Assembly (NCBI RefSeq): GCF_008107635.1
Contig: NZ_SDGZ01000015.1
Coordinates: forward strand, 62,001-126,000
DNA: 64,000 nucleotides
DNA from: Weissella muntiaci
GTDB lineage: Bacteria; Bacillota; Bacilli; Lactobacillales; Lactobacillaceae
Direction of reading: 5' to 3'
A program made the translations under genes and the position numbers. How positions within the stretch are numbered: the first letter of the stretch is position 1; every line of letters begins with the position of its first letter. Below the pieces are notes generated by a model that ran no database searches, was not told where the DNA came from, and saw only the letters and a program-made list of their open reading frames with translations. Shown here in pieces: positions 17,621 to 38,060 of the stretch.

Positions 17621-19219
17621 CTAATCTAAACCTTTGGTAATTCGTGTCGGATAAACTAGCTTCTTTTTCTTTGCATCATTCAGCAAATGTTCCCAAGCCT
17701 TCCAGACGCTCTCTTCGGAAAAGCGTTCCGAAAGCGTATAAGACGCATTCGACATTGTCTGAAGTTTCTTATCATTGCTAAAAAGTTCGACCAATTTCGC
17801 AGCCATCGCCTCAATGTCACCAAATGGCACTACATAGCCATTCTTACCATCAACCGTCAGCTCATTCGGTCCATAATTCACATCATAAGTTAGCCCAACC
17901 ATTCCATGACTATAAGCCTCCATCATTGCCAAATTGAAACCTTCCATCATAGAAGCCAAACCATAAACTTGATGCTCTCGCTGAACCTTCGCTACCAATT
18001 CAGCGTCAGCATACTCGTGATGGGTAACCGCATCTTTTAAATCATATTCCGCAATCGCTTCATCAATTGCCTTTTGTGCGGCGTTATCTTGGCTATGATC
18101 AACGTAACCATAGTAATCTAACGTAATGTCAGGAATCGTTTCTCTAGCAATCCCAATCGAGCGAATAATATTATGAATTCGCTTATCATGGGCCACACGT
18201 GCGGTGACCAATACCGAGTGACGTTTACGATCCTTGATTGCGACATGTTCTTCTGTCAGATAAGCCTCAGGCACAACTCCAACCGGAATCGTAAAGAGCT
18301 TTGCCTTTGGCTCAAAACGCGCTTTAACGTCCTTCGTCTGCTTTTTAGTTGCCGAAATAATCGCATCATAGGTATTCGCATTCGTTAAACCGTACTCATA
18401 AAAGTTATTCATTATCGAGTGCATCGTATCTTGGGCATCACCTGCATGTGAATTATGCAGATGTAATACCGTATACGCAGGTCGCTCCAGATTTTGCAAA
18501 GCCCAGTCACCAACATGAGTCCGATCCATAATGAAGATGTTCGCCTTGTGATCGTCCCAATATTGGGCATTAATTCGATTAAAGAAATGTAGTGTCAACT
18601 CATCAATTGTCGCAAAAACATAAACAGCACCACTATCTTCTGTCAAACGCCATCCCATTTTACGGTACACACCTTGAGCATCATAGCGATTAAAAGTCTC
18701 TAACACCGGTCGGCCATTAATGTCGTGCCAAACTTCAGTCCCGACTTTATTATCTGGCGTATACCATTGCACGAGACTCAAAAAACCTCTAAAATCGTAA
18801 AATTCAACGCTGTACAGGTTTCCAAATCCATCGAATAACTCAACCGAACTAACTCGTTCGGCCTTATCGTCAGGATAATACCTCACACGACCAATCAGGG
18901 CATTATCGCGAAAAACCAAATAACGTGATTGCTCAGCCTCTTTCTCATACCGTAGGCCAGTCACACCAAAGTCGATGTCTTGGACGTGAATAATCTTTGT
19001 TCTGACCTTCTCAGTTTTTTGGAAATAATCAAACATTACCAAAGTCTCATCAGCAGAGACACCATTGGCCTTCAAGAAAGTATGAATATGTGGATTCCAC
19101 TCACGGAAGACTAGTTTAAATGGTTCTTGATGTTTTCTAAAAAGTTGAGCACGTTTCAATTGAGCATGCTCAATTCCAGAGTTCTTTTCATTAAAGCTTG
19201 AATTGATAAAAAATAACAT
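17621..19219 (-). CDS. Glycosyltransferase, GtfA/GtfB (TagE-like) family, second of a pair
   Basis: The 532-residue protein is a cytoplasmic GT-B-fold glycosyltransferase of family GT4. Its N-terminus (MLFFINSSFNEKNSGIEHAQ, then LKRAQLFRKH) is typical of the Lactobacillus proteins annotated as poly(glycerol-phosphate) glucosyltransferase/TagE, some of which glycosylate proteins as GtfA/GtfB pairs. The retaining-enzyme EX7E motif is present (MEGFNLAMMEAYSHG, about residue 440), followed by DVNYGPNEL. The start is the ATG of a TAATG overlap with the upstream partner, after GGGAGAGGAAG, so the pair is translationally coupled. It is last in the coiled-coil/GT/GT operon. Acceptor choice (surface protein or teichoic acid) is inferred from context: a giant Ser-rich adhesin is encoded nearby. 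Confidence 0.8.
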   Translation of the reverse strand: MLFFINSSFNEKNSGIEHAQLKRAQLFRKHQEPFKLVFREWNPHIHTFLKANGVSADETLVMFDYFQKTEKVRTKIIHVQDIDFGVTGLRYEKEAEQSRYLVFRDNALIGRVRYYPDDKAERVSSVELFDGFGNLYSVEFYDFRGFLSLVQWYTPDNKVGTEVWHDINGRPVLETFNRYDAQGVYRKMGWRLTEDSGAVYVFATIDELTLHFFNRINAQYWDDHKANIFIMDRTHVGDWALQNLERPAYTVLHLHNSHAGDAQDTMHSIMNNFYEYGLTNANTYDAIISATKKQTKDVKARFEPKAKLFTIPVGVVPEAYLTEEHVAIKDRKRHSVLVTARVAHDKRIHNIIRSIGIARETIPDITLDYYGYVDHSQDNAAQKAIDEAIAEYDLKDAVTHHEYADAELVAKVQREHQVYGLASMMEGFNLAMMEAYSHGMVGLTYDVNYGPNELTVDGKNGYVVPFGDIEAMAAKLVELFSNDKKLQTMSNASYTLSERFSEESVWKAWEHLLNDAKKKKLVYPTRITKGLD

Positions 19220-20742
19220 TAGACTTCCTCTCCCACGATCAGGTTTTTCACTTGCTCTTGAGCCGCAGTAAATCGCTCCCACGCATGTACCATGTTAAAT
19301 GACTGCGCCTTTTGATAAGCCGCCTCAGTCATCTTCGAAACTAAGACATTCGCAAGCACTTGCGCTGCTGGACCAAGTTGACCATAAGGAACTAACATCC
19401 CAGTTCGTTCGGGATCAATCAATTCACGCGGACCATAATTAACGTCATAGGCAACCACAGGCACACCATGATTGAGGGCCTCCAACATTTGCATCCCAAA
19501 GGCTTCGCTCTCCGAAGTAACTAAAAGCGCACTCGCCTCATCCAATGCCTCAGCGATGACCTCTGCAGGCTGATACTCTTTAAATGTAACTGTCTCCTCT
19601 AATTGCAAATCTTTAATTCGCTGATCCAGTTTTTCTTTAATCTCTGTTGGTGAGAAATAACCATAAAAGTCGAGCGTCACATCTGGCAAAACCGTCTTAA
19701 CCTTTGCAATAATCTCCAAAGCATCCATCGGCTTCTTTTCGCCAGAAATCCGGCCTAGAACAATAACCTTATGTGCCCGTTCTTCCTTGTTCAACACGAC
19801 CTCATCTGCATAGGTATCTGGCAAACTCAAAACACGTTTAAATGAATAAATCCGCTCAATATCCTGCTTCTGAGCCTCAGTTGGTACGATAATCCCGTCA
19901 AAAGCATCTTTATGAATTTCAAACATTGGCTTTAGGTAGTCTGGCAAAGCATGTGCAGATGTTTGACTCTTTTGCAATCTGTAATGAATATTATGCAGAT
20001 AATTCCATTTCCCTTTAGCACCAGTTACGTTTGCAACTGCCGTAACCAACGAAGGACGATCATTGATTAGAACAACCTCATCTTGTTTAGCCAACTCATC
20101 TAAGAAGAAAGTAAACATCTCGTCTTCCGAGTTAAAACGATATGCCTTACCTTGGTAATCAAGCAGCTTGTACATTGTCGGTGCAAGCTTCTCTTTGATA
20201 TTCATATGCGTTATTTCAATCTTAGGTTTCCCGGCCCGATCGAAGAATACCTGCGTACCGACTTCTGCTCCTAAATGGAAGTATTGCGTACTAGATTTAA
20301 AGCCACGTCGATCCCAAACATCCTTAGCAACAGTAGAAAATGCGTCGTTATAATATTCGATTGATCCCACTAACCCAACCGTCGAAGGTGCTATCAAAAC
20401 CTTACCAACCATTTTGCCGGCATGGCGAATCTCCGAGACATTCGCATCAATCCCCTCGATATGATAAGTCGTCTTATCGATTGCGTTCACAAACCGAGCA
20501 CTCACATCTTTTTCATCAGTTGCTGTAAGCTCTTGGAAATAATCGTACATATTAACAACATCGGCATGTGATAAATCTAAACGTTCCAAGTCGGCTGAAA
20601 GATTCGCATTATAATTACGAGTTACAATCTTAGCTGGACGTTGATGTGCACGAAAAAGTCGTAACCGTTTGAGAGCTGAAAACTCTGTTCCTGAATTAAA
20701 CGTAAAAACATTCTCATTGATAAAATAATTCATTGCTGACAT
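19219..20742 (-). CDS. Glycosyltransferase, GtfA/GtfB (TagE-like) family, first of a pair
   Basis: The 507-residue protein is a paralogue of the following gene. It shares the N-terminal block (NYFINENVFTFNSGTEFSAL, then KRLRLFRAHQRPAKIVTRNY) and MYDYFQ near residue 70. A GT4 C-terminal half follows, with VLGRISGEKKPMDALEII and the EX7E motif in SESEAFGMQMLEALNHG, then DVNYGPRELI. It has no signal peptide or membrane segment, so it acts in the cytoplasm. AAGGAAA precedes the ATG at 20742. It begins 15 bases after the coiled-coil gene and overlaps the next gene by one base. Both members keep EX7E, whereas in streptococcal GtfA/GtfB complexes only one subunit is thought to be catalytic. Confidence 0.8.
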   Translation of the reverse strand: MSAMNYFINENVFTFNSGTEFSALKRLRLFRAHQRPAKIVTRNYNANLSADLERLDLSHADVVNMYDYFQELTATDEKDVSARFVNAIDKTTYHIEGIDANVSEIRHAGKMVGKVLIAPSTVGLVGSIEYYNDAFSTVAKDVWDRRGFKSSTQYFHLGAEVGTQVFFDRAGKPKIEITHMNIKEKLAPTMYKLLDYQGKAYRFNSEDEMFTFFLDELAKQDEVVLINDRPSLVTAVANVTGAKGKWNYLHNIHYRLQKSQTSAHALPDYLKPMFEIHKDAFDGIIVPTEAQKQDIERIYSFKRVLSLPDTYADEVVLNKEERAHKVIVLGRISGEKKPMDALEIIAKVKTVLPDVTLDFYGYFSPTEIKEKLDQRIKDLQLEETVTFKEYQPAEVIAEALDEASALLVTSESEAFGMQMLEALNHGVPVVAYDVNYGPRELIDPERTGMLVPYGQLGPAAQVLANVLVSKMTEAAYQKAQSFNMVHAWERFTAAQEQVKNLIVGEEV

Positions 20743-20757
20743 AAAAATTTCCTTTTC

Positions 20758-23700
20758 TTAGACAATCGGTTGAATCTGTTTCTCTTCAACAGCCTTTGGT
20801 TGATGAAGTTGTGGAGTGTATGCTTGCACCAAGCTGGGTTGATCGATTTGTTCAGGTAATTCACCTAAAACATCAATTTTTTCGGGAGCTTCTGGAGCCT
20901 CAATCATCATAAATTCGCCAATAAAAATTGATACATCCAACTGACTGTCATCAAAAGTAAGGTCAACATCCGAGAATGCCAAGACATTATCCCAATCATC
21001 CAGAATGAGCGGATTCGCAATCCGTTCAAAGTTTTGCACCCGTCGGATAACATCAATCAACGAACTATCCTCTGATAGAACCGATCGCAGTAACTCAACA
21101 TTCTTTTCCAGCGCCTTTTGGTAATGTGCCTTTACCTTTTCACCATCAAAAGAGAAGTCCTCCATTTTAACGGCGGAAACTCCAATCTTTGTAACCTCGC
21201 CCATCGCTTTAAGCTCATCCTTCAATTTCGCAATGCTAGTGTTGTAATCATGAATAGCACCAGCGAAGTCTTGGCTGATTTGATCAACTTGACTATCAAT
21301 TAAGGCATTGATCCGGTCGAAATATGCTGTTTGAATCTTTTCCTGAAGCCATCCAAGCGTTTGAGGCTTTTTAAGCTCAGTTACTGAAAGTCCGGTGTAT
21401 TGTGAGATAGGTGAAATATTGCGGAAATTGCTATTGTAGATGTCACTATAATTTGCTAACGAATTAATTGAGTCAATAATTGTACCCAAACCTTCTTTTC
21501 CTGATAATTCCAAAGCAATCTTACGTTTGAGGGCGTTATTATTTTGCATGGTCGTCTGATAACTTTGAACCACGTTGGCAAACAGGGTTTCGCGTTTACG
21601 GTACTCTGTTTGCCACTGTTCAACCTGGCCCTCTAATCCCAGATGGAACAATTTAATCTCCGTACCGAGATGTGGTACAACACCTTCATTCAGCTGTGCA
21701 ATTCGGTCGCCACCGGCTTTAAGGAATGCATTGGCCTTTTCTTCGTATTTCGCCAGACGTTGCTCTAACTCCTGCACGTTTCCTTTCAGATTCTCATTAA
21801 TTGTTTGAAAATCAGCCAACCAATCCGAAACTTTAGGGGTACTCTTCAATTTGAAACCTTCATCGCCAACTGCAAGTAATTCGGGGATATTAAATTCATC
21901 GACGTAGTTATCCCCTGTGGCCTCGTTAATTGGAAAACTCAACTGACCACTTGGATAGATAAATTTCTTCATCTCATCCAACGTTTGATTGAAACTCAAA
22001 CGATAATCCGTCAATTCTTTATAAGCAACTTGAGCATCCAAATAAAAAACATTTACCCGATCGTAGTATGTCTTCTCTGCTTGGTAATGCTCCAGATCAA
22101 GCTTAAATTTATTGCCATATTCTGCGTCAAAACCAGTCAACGCACTATATTGCTCCATTAATGGACTAAAGGCTGCAGCAACTTTCTCATATTTTTCAAT
22201 CAGTTGTTGTTGGAGTTCTACCGTTTGTTCATGTAATGGTCGATGTTCATCAAAATAAGCCTCAATCCCTTCATACTTACCCTGCAAGGACTGATACTTA
22301 CTTTGATTTTCTTGATAAGTAGCGTGAATCTCGTTGAATAGGTTCTGTGACTTAATTTGAGTGCTTTGTAGCAAATCCGTCGTCGTCGTAATCTTTTGTG
22401 CAACGCCGTCAATTGATTCCTCTACCTTTCCTTTCTCCTGTTCAGCCGCATCAAGCCAACCTTTGAGCTGATCCAACTCAACCTTAGTGGCATCAGCCAA
22501 CTTTGTCTTTTCATCAAAATTGCCTTGTGCAGCTTTCCACACCGTCTCCGCCTCTAAGTAGCGGTTTTTAACTTGGAAATGTTCTCCTTTAAGTGGATCA
22601 AAGTCTGCCTTAATTGCTAGATAATCATCTTTTAGTTGTACAAAATTAACCTTAGCTTGTTCGGCCTGTTGCTCATCCAAGGATTGCGTTGCAAGTAATT
22701 GGTCATAACGCTCATTCAAATGTTGAATTGCCGCTGTTACTTTTTCCTTAGCAAGCTGCACCTTCTTGAGTTGCTCATCACTGCTAGTAAAAGTCGCATA
22801 TTTATTGTCAAAAAGTGCTTTCATTGCAATGAAACTTTGCGTAACTTCTTGGAAAATTTGATCATCAAGTTGATATTCTTGCTCAACTGGTAATAAATTC
22901 TTGCGTGCGGCTTCTTTTTGAACCGCTACATCCTCGACGCCCGTTCTAAGCAGTTCAAGTAAGTGTTGTTGCTTGGTATCCTTTAGTTCGCTCGCCTCAT
23001 CATAGCTTTTCTTGATTTCATTATATTGAATATCCGCTTCGTCATACGCATGTCTTAAACCGATATATTCGCCCTTGGTCTCTTGGAATTTTTTTAAAAA
23101 CTCCTCATATTGTGCAACCACCATTTTAAAATTCGGTGCCACAAAGTCGTAACTGGCCTGATTAATATCGACCTGCTGTTGTTGCGCAGTCACGAGTTCC
23201 TCAATATTTTCAAGTTCCGCCTCTTTGCTTTGTTTTGACGACCTTGTCTTCGTCAAGGATTGGTTTAAACGATGCCAACGGGTGATCCGTTGATCTGCAT
23301 CTAAATATTCAATTTTGGCACTATTAAAGGCTTGCTCTTCAGCCAAGTAACGTTGATGGAGAGCTTCATAGACAGCCGAAAGTTGTAGATAGGCCGCATG
23401 TGTTTGCTCAAGCGATTGTGCGAGCTCTTCATTCCCATTTTTTAATTGATGATACTCGGCATCCTTTTGTACATAACTCTGCATAAGCCCTTGAACTTGA
23501 GACTCTTGTTGAACCAACAATTCCTTTTTAATCTCGAGCTCAGTTTGTGCATCATATTGATCCACCTTACCCTCAGCAAAAATCTTCGCAAGTTTTTGAT
23601 AATCACGATACTGATCTTGATAGACAGCTTCACTCGTCTCAAAAGCAGCCAGCTCATCGCGATAGTCAGTTCGTTTCTTATTTAGGGTCGCTAGTATCGC

Positions 23701-24219
23701 ATCAAACTGCTCCAATAAAGCCTGATAACTCTTGAAATCAGCATTATATTCATCCACCTGAGTAAGATATTGTTGCTTTTCTGCAAAATAAGCGTCCAAA
23801 TCCCTTTGATAAGCTTCCTTGCTTTCTGCGACTTTAGCTTCCTCCAGCTCAGCTGTCATTGTGATATCTTCAGACGACTGCTCAACTTCCGTGACTGGTT
23901 CTTCAACGGGTGCCATCATCTTTTCCTGATCGGCTACGTTTTCCGACTGCGCTGCATTCGCCCAATCAGTATCATAGGCCACCGTCATTTGGTCTTTTTC
24001 GACCAAAGTGGCTTCCAAGGTTTCTGGCATATTCGTTCCCTCAGACTTAGAATCAGCTTGTTCAACTATCAAATCATCACTGGTCGTTTGTTCCATCTGC
24101 ACCGATTGCTCCGAATCAGTTTTTTCTGTTTTAACTGAAAGTGATGCTTCTTTTCCTTCAGCTGTCGGCAAGGACACGGGATCTCTAAAATTTGAAAAAA
24201 TTTCTCTGAATTTTGACAT
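20758..24219 (-). CDS. Large cytoplasmic coiled-coil protein of unknown function
   Basis: I do not recognise a family. The 1153-residue protein has no signal peptide, membrane segment or anchor. Residues 1-130 are acidic and probably disordered, starting MSKFREIFSNFRDP, a short amphipathic piece. From about 130 to 760 runs an almost unbroken coiled coil rich in Gln, Glu, Lys and regularly spaced Tyr (for example AYEDLx-like repeats such as KYQSLQGKYEGIEAYFDEH). A short globular break around 760-810 (IYPSGQLSFPINEATGDNY) is followed by more helix and a Pro/Gln-rich tail. No good ribosome binding site precedes the ATG at 24219. It is the first gene of an operon with two glycosyltransferases and lies next to the giant adhesin, so a chaperone, scaffold or export-related role is possible but unproven. 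Confidence 0.7.
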   Translation of the reverse strand: MSKFREIFSNFRDPVSLPTAEGKEASLSVKTEKTDSEQSVQMEQTTSDDLIVEQADSKSEGTNMPETLEATLVEKDQMTVAYDTDWANAAQSENVADQEKMMAPVEEPVTEVEQSSEDITMTAELEEAKVAESKEAYQRDLDAYFAEKQQYLTQVDEYNADFKSYQALLEQFDAILATLNKKRTDYRDELAAFETSEAVYQDQYRDYQKLAKIFAEGKVDQYDAQTELEIKKELLVQQESQVQGLMQSYVQKDAEYHQLKNGNEELAQSLEQTHAAYLQLSAVYEALHQRYLAEEQAFNSAKIEYLDADQRITRWHRLNQSLTKTRSSKQSKEAELENIEELVTAQQQQVDINQASYDFVAPNFKMVVAQYEEFLKKFQETKGEYIGLRHAYDEADIQYNEIKKSYDEASELKDTKQQHLLELLRTGVEDVAVQKEAARKNLLPVEQEYQLDDQIFQEVTQSFIAMKALFDNKYATFTSSDEQLKKVQLAKEKVTAAIQHLNERYDQLLATQSLDEQQAEQAKVNFVQLKDDYLAIKADFDPLKGEHFQVKNRYLEAETVWKAAQGNFDEKTKLADATKVELDQLKGWLDAAEQEKGKVEESIDGVAQKITTTTDLLQSTQIKSQNLFNEIHATYQENQSKYQSLQGKYEGIEAYFDEHRPLHEQTVELQQQLIEKYEKVAAAFSPLMEQYSALTGFDAEYGNKFKLDLEHYQAEKTYYDRVNVFYLDAQVAYKELTDYRLSFNQTLDEMKKFIYPSGQLSFPINEATGDNYVDEFNIPELLAVGDEGFKLKSTPKVSDWLADFQTINENLKGNVQELEQRLAKYEEKANAFLKAGGDRIAQLNEGVVPHLGTEIKLFHLGLEGQVEQWQTEYRKRETLFANVVQSYQTTMQNNNALKRKIALELSGKEGLGTIIDSINSLANYSDIYNSNFRNISPISQYTGLSVTELKKPQTLGWLQEKIQTAYFDRINALIDSQVDQISQDFAGAIHDYNTSIAKLKDELKAMGEVTKIGVSAVKMEDFSFDGEKVKAHYQKALEKNVELLRSVLSEDSSLIDVIRRVQNFERIANPLILDDWDNVLAFSDVDLTFDDSQLDVSIFIGEFMMIEAPEAPEKIDVLGELPEQIDQPSLVQAYTPQLHQPKAVEEKQIQPIV

Positions 24220-24512: not shown

Positions 24513-24666
24513 TCTGTATCTATATTGTCATTTCGAAAGATGTCAAAAGCTAATCGCTAGATACAGTACCCCTAGCTATCGGCTCTTACTTTAAAAACCG
24601 ATAGCTAGAGGTACTCTATTTTTCAATAAAGTATCTCTATATTCAAAGTACTAGCTACTTTGAATA
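24513..24666 (-). repeat. Three consecutive stem-loops after the giant adhesin gene
   Basis: Immediately after the adhesin stop come three inverted repeats. The first (24640-24666) has an 11-bp perfect stem around CTAGC. The second (24565-24615) has 18-base arms with one wobble or mismatch. The third (24514-24566) has nine-base outer arms (CTGTATCTA/TAGATACAG) and an inner TTGACAT-type stem. No clean T-run follows on the minus strand. They probably stop or stabilise the very long adhesin mRNA. Confidence 0.65.
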
Positions 24667-24669
24667 AAA

Positions 24670-27600
24670 CTAATTTTCACGACGCTTTTCATAACCAAGA
24701 GCCAAAGCTAGTGAGAGCAAAGCTGCCCCAGCAGCCGCAATCTCAGCACTTTCGGCATCATCAGTTGTTCCTGTAGCAGGAAGCACAGCGGCAAAGCCAC
24801 TTTGAAGAGTCGCTTTACCAGCTCCCGTGCTCAAATTTGCAACCGTTGCACTCGTTGTCGAGTTAGCTACATTTTGACTAGCACCTTCACTAGTTACGAC
24901 GTTATTTGAAACATTACTATTATCCATTGCACCACCATTACCCGATGCACCCATTGAGATATTACTGTTTGCAATGCTACTTGCAACACTTAGTGCATCA
25001 TTTGCAGCACTCTGTGCTTTAGCGGCTTCTGTAGCGGCCAGGTTTGCCTCTACTTGAGCCTTGGCAGTCGCACTATCACCTAAGGTAGTGTTCCCGTTCT
25101 TGTAATAATCAGCGGCAGCCTTTGCATCAGCTGCGGCTTCTGCAGCAGCTTGATTAGCAGCGGCATTTGCTGATTGAGCGATCACATTATCCGAAGCAAT
25201 TTGTGAATTATCTGGATATTGTGATACTAGGCTAGCCGTTACATCAGCAGCGGTTGAAGCATTTCGTGCATCCTCTGAAGCTGTCGTAGCGAGCAAGTCA
25301 GCTACAGAACTATTACTTGCTGTTGCTCCCGACTTTCCAGCCAGACTATCCGCAACACTCTGAGCATCATTTTCAGCGCTAGCCGCTTTAGCAGCTTGTG
25401 TAGCAGCGTCAGCAGCTTCACTCTGTGCTTTAGCAGTTGCACTATTAGCACTTGCCAAATTACCAGCAGCAAGGAAATCGCTGGCAGCCTTTGCATCAGA
25501 AGCGGCGGCGACCGCATCAGAGTTAGCAGCAACACTCGCTGACTGAGCAATCACATTATCTGAAGCAATTTGTGAGTTGCTTGGATATTGCTTAGCTAGG
25601 CTTGAAGTAACAATGGCAGCGCCACTCGCAATCTTAGCAGCTTGGCTGGCCTCATTCGCAGCAGTGCTTGCAGCAGCGTTGCTTGATGGCGTGTAACTGT
25701 CATTCGGATCTGTTGTCGTGGTTCCTCCGTTATTTGGATCCGTTGTTCCACCATTGTTTGATGAAGTGGCTCCATCCTTAACGAGACTATCCGCAACGCT
25801 CAACGCATCATTAGCAGCACTTTGCGCCTTAATTGCTTCACTAGCGGCTGAATTAGCTTCCGTTTGTGCCTGAGCAGTTGCACTGTTTCCTGAAGCAACG
25901 TTTCCGTCCTTGTAATAAGAAGCAGCGGCGGTCGCATCAGAGGCGGCATCAGTTGCATCCTTAGCAGCAGCGGTACTTGCTGACTGGGCAACTACGTTGT
26001 CCGAAGCAATTGCTGAGTTAGTTGGGTATTGCGTTACCAAGCTCTCAGTCACTCCGGCGGCGTTACTTGCAGTCGTTGAAGCATCGGCAGCAGTTGAAGC
26101 AGCCAAATCGGCGGCTGAATTATCACTTGGTGTTGCACCAGGCGTTCCAGCTAGGCTATCCGCAACTCCTTGCGCATCATTCTGAGCACTAGTGGCCTTA
26201 GCAGCTTGAGCCGCCGCATCAGCAGCTTCACTTTGCGCTTGGGCAGTTGCGCTATTCGCACTTGCCAAGTTACCAGCAGCTAAGAAGTTACTTGCAGCAA
26301 CCGCATCTGAGTTAGCCGCAATCGCGTCATTTGAGGCGGCGACTGAGGCAGACTTAGCGATCACGTTGTCGGAAGCAATGCTTGAGTTAGTTGGATATTG
26401 TGAAGCCAAGTTCGACGTCACAACCGCGGCTTGACTAGCAATCTTAGCGGCAGCATCGGCTTCGTCAGCAGCATTACTTGCGGCCGCATTCTTAGCAGCG
26501 ACACTCGTTGAGATACTATCCGCCACGCTCAAGGCATCATTGGCGGCACTTTGAGCAATCACAGCTTCACTAGCAGCAGAATCAGCTTCCTTTTGTGCCT
26601 GAGCAGTCGCACTGTTTCCTGAAGCGACGTTTCCGTCCTTGTAGTAAGAAGCAGCGGCCGTCGCATCAGAGGCAGCATCGGTCGCATCCTTAGCAGCAGC
26701 GGTACTTGCTGACTGGGCAACTACGTTGTCCGAAGCAATTTCTGAGTTAGTTGGGTATTGCGTTACCAAGCTCTCAGTTACTCCGGCGGCGTTGCTTGCA
26801 GTCGTTGAAGCATCGGCGGCAGTTGAAGCAGCCAAATCGGCGGCTGAATTATTACTTGGCGTTGCACCAGGCTTTCCAGCTAGGCTATCCGCAACTCCTT
26901 GCGCGTCATTCTGAGCACTAGTGGCCTTAGCAGCTTGAGCAGCTGCATCGGCAGCTTCACTTTGTGCTTGGGCAGTCGCGCTATTCGCACTTGCTAAGTT
27001 ACCAGCAGCTAAGAAGTTACTTGCGGCAACCGCGTCTGAGTTGGCCGCAATCGCGTCATTTGAGGCAGCGACTGAGGCAGACTTAGCAATCACGTTGTCA
27101 GCAGCGATACTTGAGTTAGTTGGGTATTGTGAAGCCAAGTTCGATGTCACAACCGCGGCTTGACTAGCAATCTTAGCGGCAGCGTTGGCTTCGTCAGCGG
27201 CATTACTTGCGGCCGCGTTCTTAGCAGCGACACTCGTTGAGATACTATCTGCCACACTCAAGGCATCATTGGCAGCACTTTGGGCAAGCACAGCTTCACT
27301 AGCAGCGGAGTTCGCTTCCGTTTGTGCCTGAGCAGTCGCACTGTTTCCTGAAGCAACGTTTCCGTCCTTGTAATAAGAAGCAGCGGCGGTCGCATCAGAG
27401 GCGGCATCATTTGCATCCTTAGCAGCAGCGGTACTTGCCGACTGGGCAACTACGTTGTCCGAAGCAATTGCTGAGTTAGTTGGATATTGCGTTACCAAGC
27501 TCTCAGTCACTCCGGCGGCGTTACTTGCAGTCGTTGAAGCGTCAGCAGCAGTTGAAGCAGCCAAATCTGCGGCTGAATTATCACTTGGCGTTGCACCTGG

Positions 27601-30600: not shown

Positions 30601-33600
30601 ACCTGCCGATGCGGCAGTCGAGTTAGCCGAAACAGCCACAGCACTATCAGACTTGAAAGCAGTACTTTGTGAAGCAGCAATCGTCCGCTCAGCAGCGGCA
30701 CTCGAGGCGTTACCCGCCACAGTATAAGATGCTGCTAATGAAGCAGCTGTGCTAGCAGCAACTGATTCTGAAGTTGCCAACTTATAAGCCGAACTAGCGG
30801 CTGAAGTTGCGCTGGTAACAACCGTCTGCAACTTTGTAACGTTAGCCGCGTCGGAAGCGGTTGTTGAACTAGCCGCAACCACGGCAACTTGTAAGCTCGA
30901 CGCTGTACTTGCGGCTGTGCTGGCAGCACTTGCTGTACTCTGCAAGGCCACATTACTTGGATCAGATGCCAGTAGACTGGCGGCCACACTTGATGCAACT
31001 GAAGCAGTATAAACTGCATCATTCGTTGCACTAACAGCGGAGCTCGCTGTTTGCAAAGCATTTGGAATTGCAAAGGTCATATTCGACTGCAAATCAGCCA
31101 AAGCTGAACCTGCTGACATTGCAGCTGTGTGAACGTCCTGCATGGTTGCATCAGATGTTGCAAGGGCAATGTTATTTAGATAGGCCTTCGCTTGATCCGC
31201 TGCTAATGAAGCAGTTGAGTAAGCAACCATCGCATCATTGGCATATGAATTTGCCAAGGTTACATAGCTTGACGCAACTGCGGGCGCGGTTGCTGCTGCG
31301 GCAGCTGATGAGGCCAACTGTACCAACGCGTAATCAGTCGTCAAGTTCATCTGAGCAGATATTGCTTGCTGTTGGTAAACCCCGATCAAGCCAGAATCAG
31401 TTGTAATCTGCGTTACAGCACTATTAGCTACCGCTAGTGCACTGTTGGCTTGGGCGGCCAAGGTTGGGTAAGCTGAAGCAATTGAGTTCAACGCCGAAAC
31501 CTGACTTGCAACTGTTGCAGCATAACTATTCGTTGCCGCGGCGGCTGAAGCAGCTTGTGAGCTAAAGTTCACACCGGCAAGACTGTTCAGATTTGCAACT
31601 TCACTTTCAAACATTGAAGTCTCAACTTGCATCGTGTTCAAAGTGTAACCCTGAACATAGATATCAACACTATTGCTTGCCGCATTCGTGCCGACAGTCG
31701 TTGCCTTGTTCAAAGCATTATTCACATTAACCAATGAGTTATAAACATAACCACTTGGCATATTATTTGCCATGTAGTACGAATTATTGAAATAAATCTG
31801 GTTATTGTAATTAGCGGGTGCCAATGAAGTTCCAGCCGCCTCTGATCCAGCAGTCGTGACTGAATCAGTTGGCACAACTGTTCCAGTTAAGGCATCAATA
31901 TACCGATACGTAACACTTTCAGGAGCACCATATACATAAACCGTATAACTACTGTTCTTTCCAGCAATTGGTACAACTGCAAAGGATGCTTGCGTACCAC
32001 CTGAAGCAACTTCACTACCGACAGCCCACATATAATTACTTGGCATATAAGACACGGCAAATTGTGAAGTCATCAAGTTGATTGTTTGACCAGCCAAGTA
32101 TTCGTTAGCGGCAGCCGAGCTAGCCAACACAACATATGAGGCATACGATGACAAACCATTATTAGCCATATTTTGTGCATTAGTTGATGCTAATGAAGCG
32201 GCTGTTGAATAACTTGTAACGGCTGAACTTGCAGAACCAAGGGCTGCAGCGCGGGCGCTGTAACGAACTTCTTGTGAAACGGCTGCTGAATAAGTTGTAA
32301 AGGCTTGTCCAGCTGAAACGGCTGCAACACTGTAACTTGATGCTGCAGTGCTATAGCTCAACGCAGCCGTTGAATCACTGGCAGCTGAAGTTGACCAGTA
32401 CGTGTATGAGGCTGTATCTGATGCTTGTTGTGCTTGTGCGGCCGTCAAAGCAGCTTGAGCAGCTGCCAAACTATTTTGATAAACTGTCAACGTTGCCGTA
32501 TCAGCAGCCGTTGGCGTGTTACCAGCTGCCGCAATTGCATTCAACAGTTGAGTTTGGAAGTTAACGGCTGAACTCGCCTGGCTAACAGTTGTCGAATCAG
32601 CTGAAACCTGCGCATTATCTGCAATGACTGCATTTGAGTATTGACTAGCTGACGTTGATTCTTGCGAGGCTTGCGTTGATGCAGATGTCTGATTAGCCGT
32701 TTCGGATTGCGCATAAGACGTTAAGCCAGCTGAACCGAGTGTTGCTGCCAGACTTGTGTAGTACGAGGCTGATGCACTGTCAGACAAATATGGATTAATT
32801 GTGTTTGCTGATTGAGCAATTGCCGTATTCAAAACCGCATTTGAACTAGCTTGTACAAAGGTTGTTACCATTGATGCAATCGATGCTACTGCTAGAACGT
32901 AATTTGAAGCCGTCTGCAAATCGGCATAATACGAAGGCGCTGCTGATCCCTCTGACGCTGCTTGCGCATAATATGAAGCCGCCAAACTCGATTGATCCGT
33001 ACCCGAAGCGGTATTGATAATCGCAAAGTAACTTGAAGCAGCTGTACTATATGCCAAATACTGTGGATCGTTCGTGGCTTGGTTATAATAACTAACCGCC
33101 GAAGCCGAATCACTAGCATAATTTGCAGCATAGCTACCTTCTGCCACAGCGACAGATGATGCGCTAGAAGCCAAACTCATGTAGTAACTAAAGCTTGATG
33201 AAGCCGCTGATGAGTTCGTAACTGCTGAGTTATAAGCATCTTCATACGCTGATGACAGATTAGCGAATGAGCCAACATAAAGTGAATTAGCCGAGCCAGT
33301 AACCGGATCAGTTGCGGTTGTCAAGACTGTCGCAACTGAACTCATCGTATCAGTGTTCGACTTAGCAATTCCCGTGTAATAGGCCGAATTCTCTTGATTA
33401 ACATTAGCCGTATAACTAGCCGCTGAAGCTGAATAAGCTAAGCAAGATGCCAACTGCGAACCTTGTGCCAGTGTTGATGCCACTACTGAGGCGCTTGATG
33501 CCATCGAGACATAACTTTGATAAGCATTCTGTGGGAAGTTAGCTGCAAGGCTGGTAAAGGTTGCGGCTGAGGTCAAGTTACCTTGATAAGCCGAAACAAG

Positions 33601-36600
33601 TGCCACTAAGCTACCATAAGAAGCCATCGCAGTTGCGTTACCAGCTGTTGAAGCACTTGAGTAAAGTGACATATAAACTGCCGACTGTGAAGCCGCCTTA
33701 GCAGCATAACTACTTGCCGAGGCACTATCACTAGCATAACTTGCGGCGGTTGATCCTTCTGAGATTGCTAAATTCTGATAACCGTATGCCAATGAAGCAG
33801 CTTGAGTATAAGTGGCAACTTGGTTAGCCAATGATGCATAACTAGCGGCTACACTTGAGGCACTAGCATAAGAAGCATTCGTTGAGCCAAGACTACTTGC
33901 CAACGATGCGGCACTGCTGGCCAAGGTTGTGTATTGCATTGCAAGTGAGGAGGCAGTTGCCAAATCACTTACTGCTGTGTCGCTATAAGTTGCCAAAGAA
34001 TTTGGTAACGCTCCAGCTGCTAATGAACTAGCCTGAGCTGCGTAACTTGAAGCAGCCAATGAGTAGCTGTTATATGAAGCAATCGAGTTCGGATCTGCAC
34101 CTGAAGCGGCTGAATTAGCCAAGGCTTGGTAAGAACTTGCCATACTTGAATTAGCATTGTAATCAACGGTATAGCTTGCCAAGTTTGATCCATTGTTGTC
34201 TGTGTAAGTATAGGTAATTGAACCAACTGGAACAGCAGCAATTGTCAAAGCACGGTATCCATAACCAAGGACATTGCTTGTAGCTGTGCCACCAGCCACT
34301 TGGGTTGTACCGTTATTATAGTAAGTCAAGGTCGTGAAGGTACCTGAGTAGGTTCCATTAGCCTGATTACTAGTCGAATTACCATTTGTCCAAGATTGGA
34401 TTGCACCATTCGTTACATTGAAACGTGAATTTCCATCCACATTAATAACTGGTCCACCAGTATTAGAGTTATTGGCCTGACCGTCCACCAAAGTCACCAA
34501 CTTTGGTGAATTAATGTTCATGATGGCTCCATTACCCCAAGAAGATTGAAGGGTAATTGCCTGGCTGTTATATTGAGCCGTTTGAATATTCAATGTGGCA
34601 CCAGGTGCAAAGTTGGCAATCGCATCACCTTGCAAACGAATTGATCCACCGTTAGTTTGACTATTCGTCAAATTAAGCGTGAAGTTCTGGCCAAAGTTGA
34701 AGCTACGTGCGGCAACCTTTGTTGGACCATTATTGTTATTGTTTGGATCAGCCGTGATGCCCGCCCAATTCCCACTAGCAAGACCATTGTAATCATTTCG
34801 GTTTTGCCAAGTTGAAGAGAAGCCAGGTGTTGATGTTACGTCAGTTGTATCAAAGAAGTGTTGATACCCTGATTGATTCCATGTAACGTTATTACCCATC
34901 GCAATGTTCTTATAAGCGCCACCAATTGCGTCGTTATAAGTGTAATTGGCATTGTTATAGTAACCATTCAAGTTAACAATCGCACCATCACCAACATTGA
35001 AGCTTTGGTTGTACTTTGCGGTTGCATCAACTGGCTTGTTACTTGTATTTTGCCAAGCATACTGTTGCCAGCCATTCCCTTGGAAATCAAAGACTGGTCG
35101 ATTTTGATTTTGAGAAGCTTGAGTATAGTTGATTTGAGCATTGTTAACGATGTTAACAGCACCAACAACACCAATTCCAGCACGGGCCGTTACATTGACG
35201 TTACCGAACAGCGTTAAACCGCCATCCTCGTTATCAACAAGCCGTGTTGCTTGGGTGTTGTTATTAGCATCGTTGGTTCCATCGAGTGTTAAGTTTCCAA
35301 CCTGAACATCCCAGAATCCATAACGCCCAGTTCCATACATCGCATTTGCAGTACCGTTACCAACGGCTGCAATCAACGCATCACCATTGGCTGCATTTCC
35401 CGTATTGTATGCATAGTTGTTAGCTGCTAAGAAAGTTCCATTATTCAACACGAATGTTGCGCCAACAGAAGTTGGCGCGATAAATTCGTAAGACGCCAAG
35501 CTATTAACTAGGGCAATCTGCGAGTTATAGCTCGCCATCGAAGCCGCACCAGTTGTACCATAACTTGCTCGAATCATTGATGAAGCAAGACTATAGGCTG
35601 AACTATATGATGAAGCCATTGCCGAAGCTGTGATTCCAACTTGTGAGTTGTAAGCACCGTTCGTCATTGGCCCATACGATGCACCTGGCAGAGTTACAGC
35701 GCCAGCATTGTTAGTTGAACCACCCAATAGGAATTGGGTATTACCCATATTAACGGTATAGCCACCACCATCAATGATGACGCTAGTTCCACGAACACCA
35801 AAGTCAGATGCAGTTGCATTTGAGGCCGCCGAAATATTTGATCCAATCTGAATAAATTGGATTTGTTGATTTGTATAAGCCGATGCCAAGCCTGACCAAG
35901 TCGTAACATAGGCATAAGCATTCGATTGTGCCGCGGCGGCTGCCGCTGAAGCCTCATTAGTAATAACCGTTGGTGCTGCAATAGTTACAGCGGTTGAATT
36001 GCCGACTGTCGACCCTGCCGAGATAATCGATGAAGTTGTATCAGGTGCTGATGCAACGCTCAAGGATGTCTGATTAGCAGTTGTTGAAGTCGCTGCTGGC
36101 GTTGGATCACCAAACAGCATATTTGCTTGCAACATGTCACCTGACTTTACGGCCGACGAAGCATAACTAAAAAGCAAGCTACCTTGAGCAAGCCCTTGAG
36201 CGTTAACTTGTGCTGTCGACGAGGCTGATGCGACAGTCGTTCCAGTTGTAGTATCAACTAAAGTTCCTGTAACAGGTTGCGTCGTATTGGCCTCATTAGT
36301 GTCACCTGTAACCGTGAAGGTCTCACGACCAGTTGTGGTGGTATCAGCCTCGTATGATGCTGAAACTGTTCCATTTCCTGGTAAGGCACTACTTTGAGCA
36401 ATGTTGCTTGATGCAACAACACTCGCAGATGAGGTGCTTGATGTAGCACTTGGACTTGTCACGCTGCTGGTCGTTGATGTTGCGCTTGAACTCGTTACGC
36501 TACTTGTCGTTGATGTTGACTGAGCACTCGTGCTCGTTGTTGACGTTGAAGTAGCCACTGTGGAGCTACTAGCAGAGGTGCTCGATACAGCACTCTGTGA

Positions 36601-36837
36601 ACTTCCACCACTACTTGCTCCCGACGTAGGCGTTGTTGTGCCTACGGCGGTCACTACTGCACTATCAGCATAGGCTTGCGGAACTTGTAGAGTTTCATAA
36701 GCCCCACCAGCTAGTAATACTAGCGATGAAGCATATAGCCATCTTTTCCCAGATTTCCATGCTCGAAAGTGAGTATTTTTACTAGATCTCTGTGGATGCA
36801 TTTGCTCCATGATCTCTAAAATTCTCTCATCACTCAT
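24670..36837 (-). CDS. Giant Ala/Ser-rich LPATG-anchored surface adhesin with KxYKxGKxW-type signal peptide
   Basis: The 4055-residue protein is exported and wall-anchored. A KxYKxGKxW-type motif (RAWKSGKRW, residues 25-33) precedes a hydrophobic core ending AYA at 57. A Ser/Thr-rich stretch to about 150 follows, then a pectate-lyase-like beta-helix adhesive region (about 310-860) with many Asn/Gly turns, and MucBP-like segments near 870 (SITYTYTDNNG) and 1640 (SVTYRYIDALTG). Between and after these lie long Ala/Ser-rich helical stretches, the first Tyr-rich. An Ig-like region spans about 2260-2480. Twelve modules of about 120 residues with YPxNSxIAxDN run to the C-terminus, where LPATG (4019-4023), a hydrophobic segment and KRREN form a sortase signal. 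The ATG at 36837 follows GAGAGGAAG; a GTG at 36855 lies upstream of that site. Ser-rich composition fits glycosylation by the nearby transferases (inference). Confidence 0.9.
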   Translation of the reverse strand: MSDERILEIMEQMHPQRSSKNTHFRAWKSGKRWLYASSLVLLAGGAYETLQVPQAYADSAVVTAVGTTTPTSGASSGGSSQSAVSSTSASSSTVATSTSTTSTSAQSTSTTSSVTSSSATSTTSSVTSPSATSSTSSASVVASSNIAQSSALPGNGTVSASYEADTTTTGRETFTVTGDTNEANTTQPVTGTLVDTTTGTTVASASSTAQVNAQGLAQGSLLFSYASSAVKSGDMLQANMLFGDPTPAATSTTANQTSLSVASAPDTTSSIISAGSTVGNSTAVTIAAPTVITNEASAAAAAAQSNAYAYVTTWSGLASAYTNQQIQFIQIGSNISAASNATASDFGVRGTSVIIDGGGYTVNMGNTQFLLGGSTNNAGAVTLPGASYGPMTNGAYNSQVGITASAMASSYSSAYSLASSMIRASYGTTGAASMASYNSQIALVNSLASYEFIAPTSVGATFVLNNGTFLAANNYAYNTGNAANGDALIAAVGNGTANAMYGTGRYGFWDVQVGNLTLDGTNDANNNTQATRLVDNEDGGLTLFGNVNVTARAGIGVVGAVNIVNNAQINYTQASQNQNRPVFDFQGNGWQQYAWQNTSNKPVDATAKYNQSFNVGDGAIVNLNGYYNNANYTYNDAIGGAYKNIAMGNNVTWNQSGYQHFFDTTDVTSTPGFSSTWQNRNDYNGLASGNWAGITADPNNNNNGPTKVAARSFNFGQNFTLNLTNSQTNGGSIRLQGDAIANFAPGATLNIQTAQYNSQAITLQSSWGNGAIMNINSPKLVTLVDGQANNSNTGGPVINVDGNSRFNVTNGAIQSWTNGNSTSNQANGTYSGTFTTLTYYNNGTTQVAGGTATSNVLGYGYRALTIAAVPVGSITYTYTDNNGSNLASYTVDYNANSSMASSYQALANSAASGADPNSIASYNSYSLAASSYAAQASSLAAGALPNSLATYSDTAVSDLATASSLAMQYTTLASSAASLASSLGSTNASYASASSVAASYASLANQVATYTQAASLAYGYQNLAISEGSTAASYASDSASASSYAAKAASQSAVYMSLYSSASTAGNATAMASYGSLVALVSAYQGNLTSAATFTSLAANFPQNAYQSYVSMASSASVVASTLAQGSQLASCLAYSASAASYTANVNQENSAYYTGIAKSNTDTMSSVATVLTTATDPVTGSANSLYVGSFANLSSAYEDAYNSAVTNSSAASSSFSYYMSLASSASSVAVAEGSYAANYASDSASAVSYYNQATNDPQYLAYSTAASSYFAIINTASGTDQSSLAASYYAQAASEGSAAPSYYADLQTASNYVLAVASIASMVTTFVQASSNAVLNTAIAQSANTINPYLSDSASASYYTSLAATLGSAGLTSYAQSETANQTSASTQASQESTSASQYSNAVIADNAQVSADSTTVSQASSAVNFQTQLLNAIAAAGNTPTAADTATLTVYQNSLAAAQAALTAAQAQQASDTASYTYWSTSAASDSTAALSYSTAASSYSVAAVSAGQAFTTYSAAVSQEVRYSARAAALGSASSAVTSYSTAASLASTNAQNMANNGLSSYASYVVLASSAAANEYLAGQTINLMTSQFAVSYMPSNYMWAVGSEVASGGTQASFAVVPIAGKNSSYTVYVYGAPESVTYRYIDALTGTVVPTDSVTTAGSEAAGTSLAPANYNNQIYFNNSYYMANNMPSGYVYNSLVNVNNALNKATTVGTNAASNSVDIYVQGYTLNTMQVETSMFESEVANLNSLAGVNFSSQAASAAAATNSYAATVASQVSALNSIASAYPTLAAQANSALAVANSAVTQITTDSGLIGVYQQQAISAQMNLTTDYALVQLASSAAAAATAPAVASSYVTLANSYANDAMVAYSTASLAADQAKAYLNNIALATSDATMQDVHTAAMSAGSALADLQSNMTFAIPNALQTASSAVSATNDAVYTASVASSVAASLLASDPSNVALQSTASAASTAASTASSLQVAVVAASSTTASDAANVTKLQTVVTSATSAASSAYKLATSESVAASTAASLAASYTVAGNASSAAAERTIAASQSTAFKSDSAVAVSANSTAASAGTAMTSAVTDTINAANSASALATSAAVAAASGTDAMSAALILTGQSLSNLPNNSVAASVVASALSSAASSASTAASIASSNASVASSTTASVLALGSEYATNKPLIAANSTASSAEIVVSSAASDASSAAKAMETDLSAGDITDAQLQNSILASATSVANSVALIASSAASVAASMATAQQNATTTVTVFAPARVIATGNQFVYVPVMVSKDVIDAGSNTPATATLYAVAANGTTKAIGTVKGMISVDNNGYGLTTLSFNVNGTGLNGYSLYADVSVADPITGGGPGSGMIKVGGIGLDAFGTTDPQVYATTTRVGQAVTLPNFNATDPVTETTPPATGPNAVTIKVTAAPSADAALVGTSVTPGTSFTPTQAGTYVITYQFIAQNDVTANYATTATLTITVAPDAVTEATVLTSQAVSDASAASSYASIATSDNTKTSGFASSFPADSTIASDAVVTSNAQILASKAASLASSDASVAVSASNALAKDIAAGNSAAAAQDIVNASNAVSDAAIQLNSASSAAADASSAASEAQLEAISLMGAGPVAASSKDRASSAAVITDSLASKYPSNSEIASDNTIAQSAAIAASSYAADANSYLASGNTDSAVSAANAASNEADIAVSAATDAQSVASSLTNSGKPSNDAASNAADEADAAAKIASQAAVVTSNLASQYPTNSSIAADNVIAKSASVAASNDAIAANSDAVAASNFLAAGNLASANSATVQAQSEAADAAAQAAKATSAQNDAQGVADSLAGTPGATPSDNSAADLAASTAADASTTASNAAGVTESLVTQYPTNSAIASDNVVAQSASTAAAKDATDAASDATAAASYYKDGNVASGNSATAQAQTEANSAASEAVIAQSAANDALSVADSISTSVAAKNAAASNAADEANAAAKIASQAAVVTSNLASQYPTNSSIAADNVIAKSASVAASNDAIAANSDAVAASNFLAAGNLASANSATVQAQSEAADAAAQAAKATSAQNDAQGVADSLAGTPGATPSDNSAADLAASTAADASTTASNAAGVTESLVTQYPTNSAIASDNVVAQSASTAAAKDANDAASDATAAASYYKDGNVASGNSATAQAQTEANSAASEAVLAQSAANDALSVADSISTSVAAKNAAASNAADEANAAAKIASQAAVVTSNLASQYPTNSSIAADNVIAKSASVAASNDAIAANSDAVAASNFLAAGNLASANSATAQAQSEAADAAAQAAKATSAQNDAQGVADSLAGKPGATPSNNSAADLAASTAADASTTASNAAGVTESLVTQYPTNSEIASDNVVAQSASTAAAKDATDAASDATAAASYYKDGNVASGNSATAQAQKEADSAASEAVIAQSAANDALSVADSISTSVAAKNAAASNAADEADAAAKIASQAAVVTSNLASQYPTNSSIASDNVIAKSASVAASNDAIAANSDAVAASNFLAAGNLASANSATAQAQSEAADAAAQAAKATSAQNDAQGVADSLAGTPGATPSDNSAADLAASTAADASTTASNAAGVTESLVTQYPTNSAIASDNVVAQSASTAAAKDATDAASDATAAASYYKDGNVASGNSATAQAQTEANSAASEAIKAQSAANDALSVADSLVKDGATSSNNGGTTDPNNGGTTTTDPNDSYTPSSNAAASTAANEASQAAKIASGAAIVTSSLAKQYPSNSQIASDNVIAQSASVAANSDAVAAASDAKAASDFLAAGNLASANSATAKAQSEAADAATQAAKAASAENDAQSVADSLAGKSGATASNSSVADLLATTASEDARNASTAADVTASLVSQYPDNSQIASDNVIAQSANAAANQAAAEAAADAKAAADYYKNGNTTLGDSATAKAQVEANLAATEAAKAQSAANDALSVASSIANSNISMGASGNGGAMDNSNVSNNVVTSEGASQNVANSTTSATVANLSTGAGKATLQSGFAAVLPATGTTDDAESAEIAAAGAALLSLALALGYEKRREN
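25757..28672 (-). repeat. Four tandem 729-bp repeats inside the adhesin gene
   Basis: Nearly identical 729-base units (243 codons) follow each other. For example ACTACGTTGTCCGAAGCAAT starts at 25991, 26720, 27449 and 28178, exactly 729 apart. Each unit encodes two related modules of about 120 residues (QYPTNSSIAADN type and QYPTNSAIASDN type). The outer ends diverge. The high identity implies recent duplication or ongoing recombination, and copy number may vary between strains or be mis-assembled. Confidence 0.93.
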
Positions 36838-36909: not shown

Positions 36910-36937
36910 ATTATAGCACGTTGACTAATTTTGTCAT
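36910..36937 (-). promoter_or_regulatory. Promoter of the giant adhesin gene
   Basis: On the minus strand ATGACA (36932-36937) and TATAAT (36910-36915) are 16 bases apart, with TG just before the -10 (extended -10). The leader is about 65 bases and contains a weak ATACAT/ATGTAT inverted repeat. Confidence 0.75.
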
Positions 36938-37315: not shown

Positions 37316-37368
37316 TTAAAAAAGCGATGCCGATATTTTAGAAGTTCCCTTCAAAATATCAACACCAC
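37316..37368 (-). terminator. Sortase gene terminator
   Basis: Directly after the sortase stop the minus strand forms a long imperfect stem (GGTGTTGATATTTTGAAG, GGAA, CTTCTAAAATATCGGCATC, with G-U pairs and one bulge) followed by GCTTTTTT. Confidence 0.8.
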
Positions 37369-37376
37369 TTTTCTAG

Positions 37377-38060
37377 TTATTTATTCACAAAATATTGTGC
37401 CGAATGATTATCATACTTTTCAACCTGGTTCAATTCGCCTACAACAATAATCCGCTTAGTTGCCGCCAAGTCCAAACAAGTAATCAAAGTCACTCGATTC
37501 TCACCCGGAACATCGTCAACCACATCCACACTATACTGACTAACGGTATCAATCGAAGTTACCTTATATACATAGACAGATTGCTTATCGGTTAAATAAA
37601 TCGTCTGACCCACCTTGGCTTTGATCAACGGACTAAACAATTTCTTGCCATCCGATTGATTATTATCATCAAAGACATTATGGCTAGCTAACGCATAATT
37701 ACCCTGCCCCATCACTTGATCAGCTTTCATCGTACCGGCGCCAAACATCATCTCCTCATAGCCAACCCCTTTAAAAATCGGCAAATTCAATTTCAAGGCC
37801 GGAATTGAGATACCACCAACCGCTGGATAGGCTTTATTATCAAAAGCCTTCTTAGCAATATCTTCAGCTGTTGCTGGTTTTACACTGGCATAATCAAAAT
37901 TGCCTTTTTTTCGGTTATTTTTGGCATAGTTGCTGGCAGTCTGTCGATTTACACTATAAGCATTCTGCTCATGAGCTGTTACTAAATTACCTAACTGCGA
38001 ATACAGGATTAATCCTAACCCCAGCACCAATAATATCACTGCGCTTATTTTTCTAATCAA
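37377..38060 (-). CDS. srtA: Class A sortase
   Basis: Sortase A cleaves LPXTG proteins between Thr and Gly and links them to peptidoglycan. The 227-residue protein has one N-terminal membrane anchor (residues about 5-22) and the class A catalytic triad: His127 (YALASHN), Cys195 (TLITC) and Arg203 (ATKRIIVVGEL). The start is a TTG at 38060 after an AGAGAGAAGA stretch, a weak site that suggests modest expression. It lies between the WxL cluster, from which a terminator separates it, and the giant LPATG adhesin, its likely substrate. Whether it is the housekeeping sortase or dedicated to this locus cannot be told from one window. Confidence 0.92.
   Translation of the reverse strand: MIRKISAVILLVLGLGLILYSQLGNLVTAHEQNAYSVNRQTASNYAKNNRKKGNFDYASVKPATAEDIAKKAFDNKAYPAVGGISIPALKLNLPIFKGVGYEEMMFGAGTMKADQVMGQGNYALASHNVFDDNNQSDGKKLFSPLIKAKVGQTIYLTDKQSVYVYKVTSIDTVSQYSVDVVDDVPGENRVTLITCLDLAATKRIIVVGELNQVEKYDNHSAQYFVNK

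Follow-up and report, generated by a model that had tools for sequence, protein, structure and literature searches.

By which route are very long, presumably glycosylated proteins with KxYKxGKxW-type signal peptides exported without accessory Sec machinery? The question is raised by a locus of Weissella muntiaci in a stretch of 64,000 nucleotides, referred to here as the window (contig NZ_SDGZ01000015.1, denoted by C7, positions 62001–126000; the genome is denoted by G000 and the 27 other genomes of the genus by G001–G027). The locus encodes a giant Ala/Ser-rich adhesin, a long coiled-coil protein, two glycosyltransferases (GT2 and GT1) and a sortase. A giant Ala/Ser-rich KxYKxGKxW adhesin with a transferase pair and no accessory Sec is already known from SpcB of L. 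rhamnosus; what is new here is the cassette of coiled coil, GT2 and GT1, which is little described and recurs in other lactic acid bacteria.

A coiled-coil and glycosyltransferase cassette

All five open reading frames (ORFs), for the adhesin, coiled coil, GT2, GT1 and sortase, are uninterrupted and encoded on the minus strand, as had been claimed in an earlier note on this DNA (Table 1). The adhesin has 4055 residues from its ATG, or 4061 from a GTG further upstream; its signal peptide, with the motif RAWKSGKRW, scored 21.5 bits against the TIGR03715 cut-off of 18, and the protein ends with an LPXTG-type sorting motif. Its first 250 residues are Ser/Thr-rich, and over segments of 250 residues the fraction of Ala ranged from 0.10 to 0.34 and that of Ser from 0.04 to 0.23. 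The Ala periodicity of its repeats peaks at 3.42, 3.74 and 3.52, which is helical. The next three genes are tightly spaced, with 15 bases between the coiled coil and GT2 and a stop/start overlap between GT2 and GT1, the likeliest start of GT1 being the ATG at 19219 (532 residues) and not the upstream GTG of the listed form (553 residues).

The coiled-coil protein of the window (CC-long) matched no Pfam family at E ≤ 0.001. Its hydrophobic periodicity of 3.5 residues, with neither a signal peptide nor a membrane-like segment, fits the cytoplasmic coiled-coil protein of the earlier note. The CC-long family comprises the proteins of the window, of G025 and of Lactococcus nasutitermitis, with a conserved stretch FPINEATxxNxVDE. 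The window protein aligned with that of L. nasutitermitis at 366 bits (maximum of 100 heptad-preserving shuffles, 53.5) and with the larger G025 piece at 204 bits (maximum of 100 such shuffles, 39.3); judging by these scores, CC-long is truly homologous across Weissella and L. nasutitermitis. A second family, CC-short, is found in a second copy of the cassette in G000 (contig C15), in the Lactobacillus metagenome-assembled genome (MAG) UBA11204 (G478) and in the same-family genome G075. Profile comparison gave no kinship between the two families (HHalign probability 0.4), and we do not treat them as one. That two different coiled coils occupy one slot suggests a requirement of the cassette for a long coil.

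A further candidate for CC-long kinship was a 1433-residue secreted LPNTG coiled-coil protein (L038:3640-7941, in G143:C5), whose neighboring ORFs resemble type VII secretion genes by eye. Its coil aligned with CC-long in HHalign at 98.7%, yet the BLAST score of 62.8 bits lay within that of heptad-preserving shuffles (mean 58.8, maximum 76.6), and homology through the coil was rejected on this basis. Its tail gave a weak alignment with the FPINEAT region of CC-long (score 30.3 vs ≤20.5 in 40 shuffles, at a probability of only 7.9). An amphipathic N-terminus of CC-long was also considered and found to be within background, with equal or higher scores in 12%, 20% and 71% of 189 other N-termini; the corresponding figures for CC-short were 6% and 26%. 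Among the PLSDB plasmids, no copy of the coiled coil was found at E ≤ 1e-5 and none of GT1 at E ≤ 1e-60.

Both GT1 and GT2 carry the EX7E motif of GT4 transferases, and their best NCBIfam models are SdgA/SdgB (NF047880/NF047881), at 187–232 bits and under the cut-off of 800. Among solved sequences, they are nearest to group 1 transferases (7ec1, 7ec3 and 7ec7), Gtf1 and TarM. TIGR02918 (cut-off 574.6) gave the two proteins 169.4 and 84.8 bits, and TIGR02919 (cut-off 338.3) gave GT2 34.2 bits, all below cut-off; the GtfB proteins of contig C16 in G000 and of G025, unlike the window GT2, have no EX7E. The term GtfA/GtfB-like, used in the earlier note, therefore calls for refinement as to the nearest models and the motif kept in both. 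Since EX7E is kept and SdgA/SdgB and L. plantarum Gtf1/Gtf2 offer precedents, the likeliest activity of GT1 and GT2 would be cytosolic O-glycosylation of the adhesin. As with SdgA/SdgB, a GT4 pair is found beside a wall-anchored adhesin, here with the coiled-coil gene in between. Elsewhere in G000, an 822-residue fusion of an SdgA/B-like transferase and a PRK09814-type domain is encoded downstream of a KxYKxGKxW protein (L028:6431-8899, in C15), and three SdgA/B-like transferases stand in a row beside an LPETG protein with NSGDNNTGN-type repeats (L034:7337-14974, in C9).

Transferase pairs were sought in the genomes with two peptide patterns, and all loci counted here are those among the matches listed, not a census. 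Of 61 pairs, L031 and L034 (24–31% identity) were set aside and seven second copies were left out (L094, L109, L112, L113, L116, L139 and L141), while the G025 locus, broken over two contigs and with its coiled coil on L036, was counted once. Two gene orders remained, GT1 then GT2 in 42 distinct loci and the swapped order, GT2 then GT1, in 10; among the 42 there are several closely related loci, and p-values computed on them therefore overstate independence. The swapped loci form a single clade in the trees of both GT1 (10 of 58 rows, support 97/99) and GT2 (9 of 55 rows, support 100/100, the broken G025 GT2 having been left out). Their hosts are G000 (two loci), G025, G075 (two), L. nasutitermitis (two), UBA11204 and the Streptococcaceae MAG Ehx436_bin1 (G479; two). 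As swapped pairs thus occur in two families, horizontal transfer is suggested.

Of the 10 swapped loci, 6 have a coiled-coil gene of either family just before GT2, and no CC-long or CC-short homolog, searched for among 1265 ORFs, was found beside any of the 42 unswapped pairs. The idea of the coiled coil as a general partner of such pairs was accordingly dropped, as it is confined to one transferase clade. The order adhesin, CC-long, GT2, GT1 recurs in G025 and L. nasutitermitis. In G025 the cassette is broken, with the coiled coil in two frames and GT2 split between the end of L036 (G025:C13) and the start of L076 (C4), and an integrase-like gene adjoins the break. In L. nasutitermitis, a 2786-residue adhesin (RTWKSGKHW, LPQTG) is followed by CC-long, GT2 and GT1 at one locus; at the other, a 3184-residue adhesin (RMWKRGKQW, LPKTG) precedes the GT2-GT1 pair and there is no coiled coil. 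The second G000 copy (L029, C15:20001-40000) has several KxYK-type proteins, a 512-residue CC-short, GT2 (47%) and GT1 (68%). The claim that adhesin, coiled coil and transferases belong together thus gained the recurrence of the order in two further genomes, and its support is only partial.

The co-occurrence that the earlier note had proposed to survey held on the side of the coiled coil, which was nowhere seen away from a transferase pair, and less so for the transferases: of 46 genomes, two with GT2 matches (G049 and G062) gave no hit for KxYKxGKxW at E ≤ 0.001. Of the 42 unswapped pairs, 7 have a KxYK-type protein as direct neighbor. At the swapped loci, 9 of 13 such proteins have RxWKxGKxW in place of KxYKxGKxW, vs none of 33 others read (compiled by hand; L150, L151, L155 and L162, of 20 small stretches, had no motif and were left out); because the samples are not independent, we take this subtype as a lead. 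In L100–L104, loci of Apilactobacillus and related ones, an unswapped pair faces a convergent giant protein, of which 1668 to 2802 residues are seen before the stretch ends cut it, with 0.40–0.44 Ala/Ser/Thr and little Gly or Pro.

Between the adhesin and the coiled-coil gene of the window, positions 24540–24670 gave a fold z-score of −8.85, and none of 200 shuffles was as stable. RNA structure at this place was strong in all three CC-long loci (z −8.85, −5.62 and −3.09) and not significant in one CC-short locus (z 0.34) or one coil-less locus (z −0.69), five loci having been folded in all. Such a structure would be consistent with separate or attenuated expression of the adhesin on the one hand and the coiled coil-GT2-GT1 unit on the other. 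Known RNA families gave no hit within the cassette at the gathering threshold; three tRNAs lie elsewhere in the window. Between 36700 and 38200, we counted 15 promoter-like sites, vs 6.3 (sd 2.5) in shuffles.

The solved sequences nearest to the sortase are mostly named SrtA or class A sortase (best E 3.6e-45), in line with the class A sortase claimed earlier, and its top NCBIfam subfamily, class C, stayed under the cut-off. By its relatives the enzyme is SrtA-like class A and a candidate anchor of the window adhesin. Directly beside it is a WxL cluster (window 38169–45853) with a WxL protein, a WxLIP protein and two large proteins without a Pfam match.

Table 1 Features of the locus (positions in the window)
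Feature	Positions	Strand	Basis
Class A sortase (SrtA-like), adjoins WxL cluster	37377..38060	-	closest solved sequences
Promoter-like site 5′ of adhesin, ATGACA-16-TATAAT, TG before second hexamer	36910..36937	-	11/12 matches
Adhesin, 4055-residue Ala/Ser-rich LPXTG surface protein (adhesin/fibril)	24670..36837	-	ORF; composition along 250-residue segments
KxYKxGKxW-type signal peptide motif, RxWKxGKxW subtype (FRAWKSGKRWLYASS)	36715..36777	-	TIGR03715 above cut-off
Ala-rich repeats, ~120 residues each (borders approximate)	24858..28902	-	Ala periodicity
LPATG sorting motif, near adhesin C-terminus	24769..24783	-	translation
Strong RNA hairpin, adhesin stop to coiled-coil start	24561..24620	-	fold z-score
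CC-long, 1153-residue coiled-coil protein without signal peptide	20758..24219	-	no Pfam family; periodicity; homology
GT2, GT4 glycosyltransferase, SdgA/SdgB-like	19219..20742	-	Pfam, NCBIfam, motif, solved relatives
GT1, GT4 glycosyltransferase, SdgA/SdgB- and GtfA-like	17621..19219	-	Pfam, NCBIfam, motif, solved relatives

Accessory Sec in the window genome and its relatives

The secA2 and asp genes are indeed not in the window, the SecA-like matches of G000 being on C13 and C32 and the Asp2-like ones on C32 and C29. The view of a self-contained locus without accessory Sec, which the earlier note had built on this, is nevertheless ruled out for G000 by a single gene run on C32: SecA2, then secY2, asp1, asp2, asp3 and two PRK09814-type transferases (below cut-off), which we take to be Gtf3-like. 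Within this run Asp1, Asp2 and Asp3 exceed their NCBIfam cut-offs, and SecY2 and SecA2 fall under theirs. A GtfA/GtfB pair on C16 scored just under its cut-offs (553.6 bits vs 574.6 and 317.3 vs 338.3), and the SecA of C13 is the housekeeping one (NF009538, 1079 bits vs 814). The Asp2-like protein of C29 is the second in G000 and scored 135.8 bits, below the cut-off of 210.75. Its gene lies in L077 (C29:1-8577) between the end of a Ser/Glu-rich repeat protein and another KxYKxGKxW-type protein, its neighbors of 412 and 270 residues matched no NCBIfam family at E ≤ 1e-10, and this short contig is possibly a diverged accessory Sec locus. The KxYKxGKxW search of G000 gave 22 rows at E ≤ 10, of which 21 reach the cut-off, and 18 at E ≤ 0.001, so that about 20 proteins of this genome, the window adhesin among them, carry such signals.

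Proteins with KxYKxGKxW signals (E ≤ 0.001) were present in 27/27 same-genus genomes, and asp2 above its cut-off in 8/27, the same eight having at least 2 SecA (weak partial asp2 matches in G012, G017, G019 and G022 were left out). GT2 homologs (E ≤ 1e-40) were found in 19/27 and together with asp2 in 5 (p = 0.66); there is no linkage of the two in the genus. G027, with one SecA and no asp2, encodes a 4055-residue KMYKSKKRW protein directly after its transferase pair; in the trees, these transferases group with Weissella confusa. Giants with KxYKxGKxW signals and no accessory Sec are thus not unusual.

As in G000, SecA2, SecY2 and Asp1-3 are present in G025. UBA11204 has Asp1, Asp2 (over cut-off) and SecY2, with one SecA seen, and Ehx436 has a sub-threshold Asp2, GtfA- and GtfB-like proteins and one SecA. 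In G075, a genome without detectable asp2, a SecA2-like protein of 1023 residues (L092:7907-10978, in C1) scored 904.6 bits vs 930 for TIGR03714 over residues 9–659; it has a C-terminal extension and adjoins a PRK09814-type transferase. In the draft genome of L. nasutitermitis, searches for SecA and Asp2 gave a single SecA and no Asp2 hit up to E = 0.1. A Lactococcus lactis genome used as a control also had no asp2 above the cut-off. On this ground, from one draft genome, the cassette may exist without detectable accessory Sec.

What the cassette may do

We propose that the product of the locus is a single Ala/Ser-rich fibril, O-glycosylated and anchored to the wall. As a pair of the SdgA/SdgB type or of the L. 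plantarum Gtf1/Gtf2 type, GT2 and GT1 would add sugars to Ser/Thr of the adhesin in the cytosol before export. The coiled coil, made from the same three-gene unit, would stay in the cytosol as a scaffold or holdase and keep the very long helical precursor open and beside the transferases. The adhesin would then leave by the Sec channel, in G000 either that of the general system or the accessory one of C32 acting in trans, and sortase A would anchor it to the wall. For this SdgA/SdgB-type glycosylation with a coiled-coil scaffold or holdase, we see an even chance. Several findings weigh against it. The coil is not obligatory, as 4 of the 10 swapped loci have none and at two of these (L096/L141 and L098) the adhesin is directly upstream of the pair. 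Furthermore, CC-long is rare, its C-terminal half being found in 2/397 family genomes (G000 itself and G025) and the full protein giving matches in 4/199 relatives, two of which (G143 and G145) are weak and coil-type. The GT2 of the C15 copy carries EX7D, not EX7E. Finally, the window adhesin resembles those at the other two CC-long loci in the signal region only, and the latter two match each other beyond it.

In a bolder form of the holdase idea, the coiled coil would replace Asp1-3 and the GtfB-type chaperone, letting the glycosylated giant through ordinary Sec as a dedicated holdase in the cytosol, with two unrelated families recruited and the cassette moving between families of lactic acid bacteria; we consider this rather unlikely. 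It is possible, although we hold it only tentatively, that the adhesin is an ordinary client of an accessory Sec encoded elsewhere, like the dispersed serine-rich repeat proteins (SRRPs) of S. salivarius, whose GtfE/GtfF are outside the secA2 locus according to the part of the source available (PMC5796085), and that the coiled coil is an extra helper. Except for the export route, this overlaps with the glycosylation and scaffold explanation. We gave it more weight because more accessory Sec parts were found in genomes with swapped pairs: some component was seen in 5/6 of them, including the full sets of G000 and G025, asp2 over its cut-off in these two and UBA11204, and the weaker matches of Ehx436 and G075 described above. 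Against it stand L. nasutitermitis, with the full cassette, the genus-wide presence of KxYKxGKxW proteins vs a second SecA in 8/27, and the lack of association between GT2 and asp2. The glycine count after the signal motif, tried as a marker of the export route, did not separate the likely classes and lends this explanation no help.

Two other explanations detach the coiled coil from the adhesin. It may itself be structural, as a cytoskeleton-like filament or a surface-reaching protein that merely rides in the operon, and the filling of the slot by two families without detectable kinship would suit this, as would the HHalign match to the coil of the secreted L038 protein and the weak alignment with its tail. 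The BLAST match to L038 is, however, within shuffles, CC-long shows no signal peptide or membrane-like segment, and at each of the 6 loci with a coiled-coil gene, GT2 comes immediately after it; hence a structural role seems unlikely to us. Alternatively, the coiled coil would be a substrate or targeting subunit of the transferase pair and have nothing to do with the adhesin, in keeping with the tight coupling of the three genes and with the strong RNA structure that separates them from the adhesin in three CC-long loci. This we regard as very unlikely, given that KxYK-type proteins at the swapped loci share a signal-peptide subtype and that at L098 and L141 a swapped pair lies next to such a protein with no coiled coil present.

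Relation to known systems

A published precedent is SpcB of L. rhamnosus, reported with 3275 residues, a KxYKxGKxW signal, Ala/Ser-rich composition, LPXTG, 111-residue repeats and a possibly helical fibril; in strains GG, Lc 705 and ATCC 8530 its cluster has two GtfA-family transferases downstream, and with a single secA/secYEG reported, standard Sec is expected (PMC3584209, available part). The window adhesin is likewise over 3000 residues, with long Ala/Ser-rich repeats, KxYKxGKxW, LPXTG and a transferase pair nearby. Unlike the window, the SpcB locus, as described in that part, has Big-3 proteins (SpcC, SpcD and the secreted SpcA) between SpcB and the transferases, and the main text of the paper (PMC3584209) is without the word "coiled"; unlike the SpcB host, the window genome has accessory Sec.

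The Sdr adhesins of S. aureus, which are glycosylated by SdgA and SdgB, are not clustered with accessory Sec (PMC3794999, available part). The two enzymes are the nearest named models of the window transferases, which score far under the SdgA/B cut-off, and likewise form a pair beside surface adhesins, thought cytosolic, with no accessory Sec cluster. Unlike the window genes, sdgA and sdgB are described in the available text as divergently transcribed, with Ser-Asp repeats in their substrates vs Ala/Ser helical repeats, and no coiled-coil gene is mentioned there (PMC3794999). In L. plantarum, O-glycosylation needs both Gtf1 and Gtf2; unlike what is proposed for the window, the pair modifies several cellular proteins, and the accessible part of the source mentions no adjoining giant adhesin or coiled coil (PMC5796085). 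With the SRRP loci (GspB, Fap1 and L. reuteri SRRP), as far as the sources available describe them, the window locus shares the KxYKxGKxW-type signal, the wall anchor and, presumably, cytosolic glycosylation before export. It differs from them in that secA2, secY2 and the asp genes are on C32 and not beside the adhesin on C7, both transferases keep EX7E, and in place of short Ser repeats the adhesin has Ala-rich units of ~120 residues. Among the papers listed on KxYKxGKxW together with accessory Sec, Weissella, coiled-coil or glycosyltransferase, no coiled-coil cassette was described in titles and abstract openings.

In 19/27 same-genus genomes (one of them 66% complete), KxYKxGKxW signals go with just one SecA and asp2 does not exceed its cut-off, and in these the question of export arises as well. 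Since the compact cassette, coiled coil included, is also present in a Lactococcus that gave no accessory Sec marker, this question may be tested by gene deletion.

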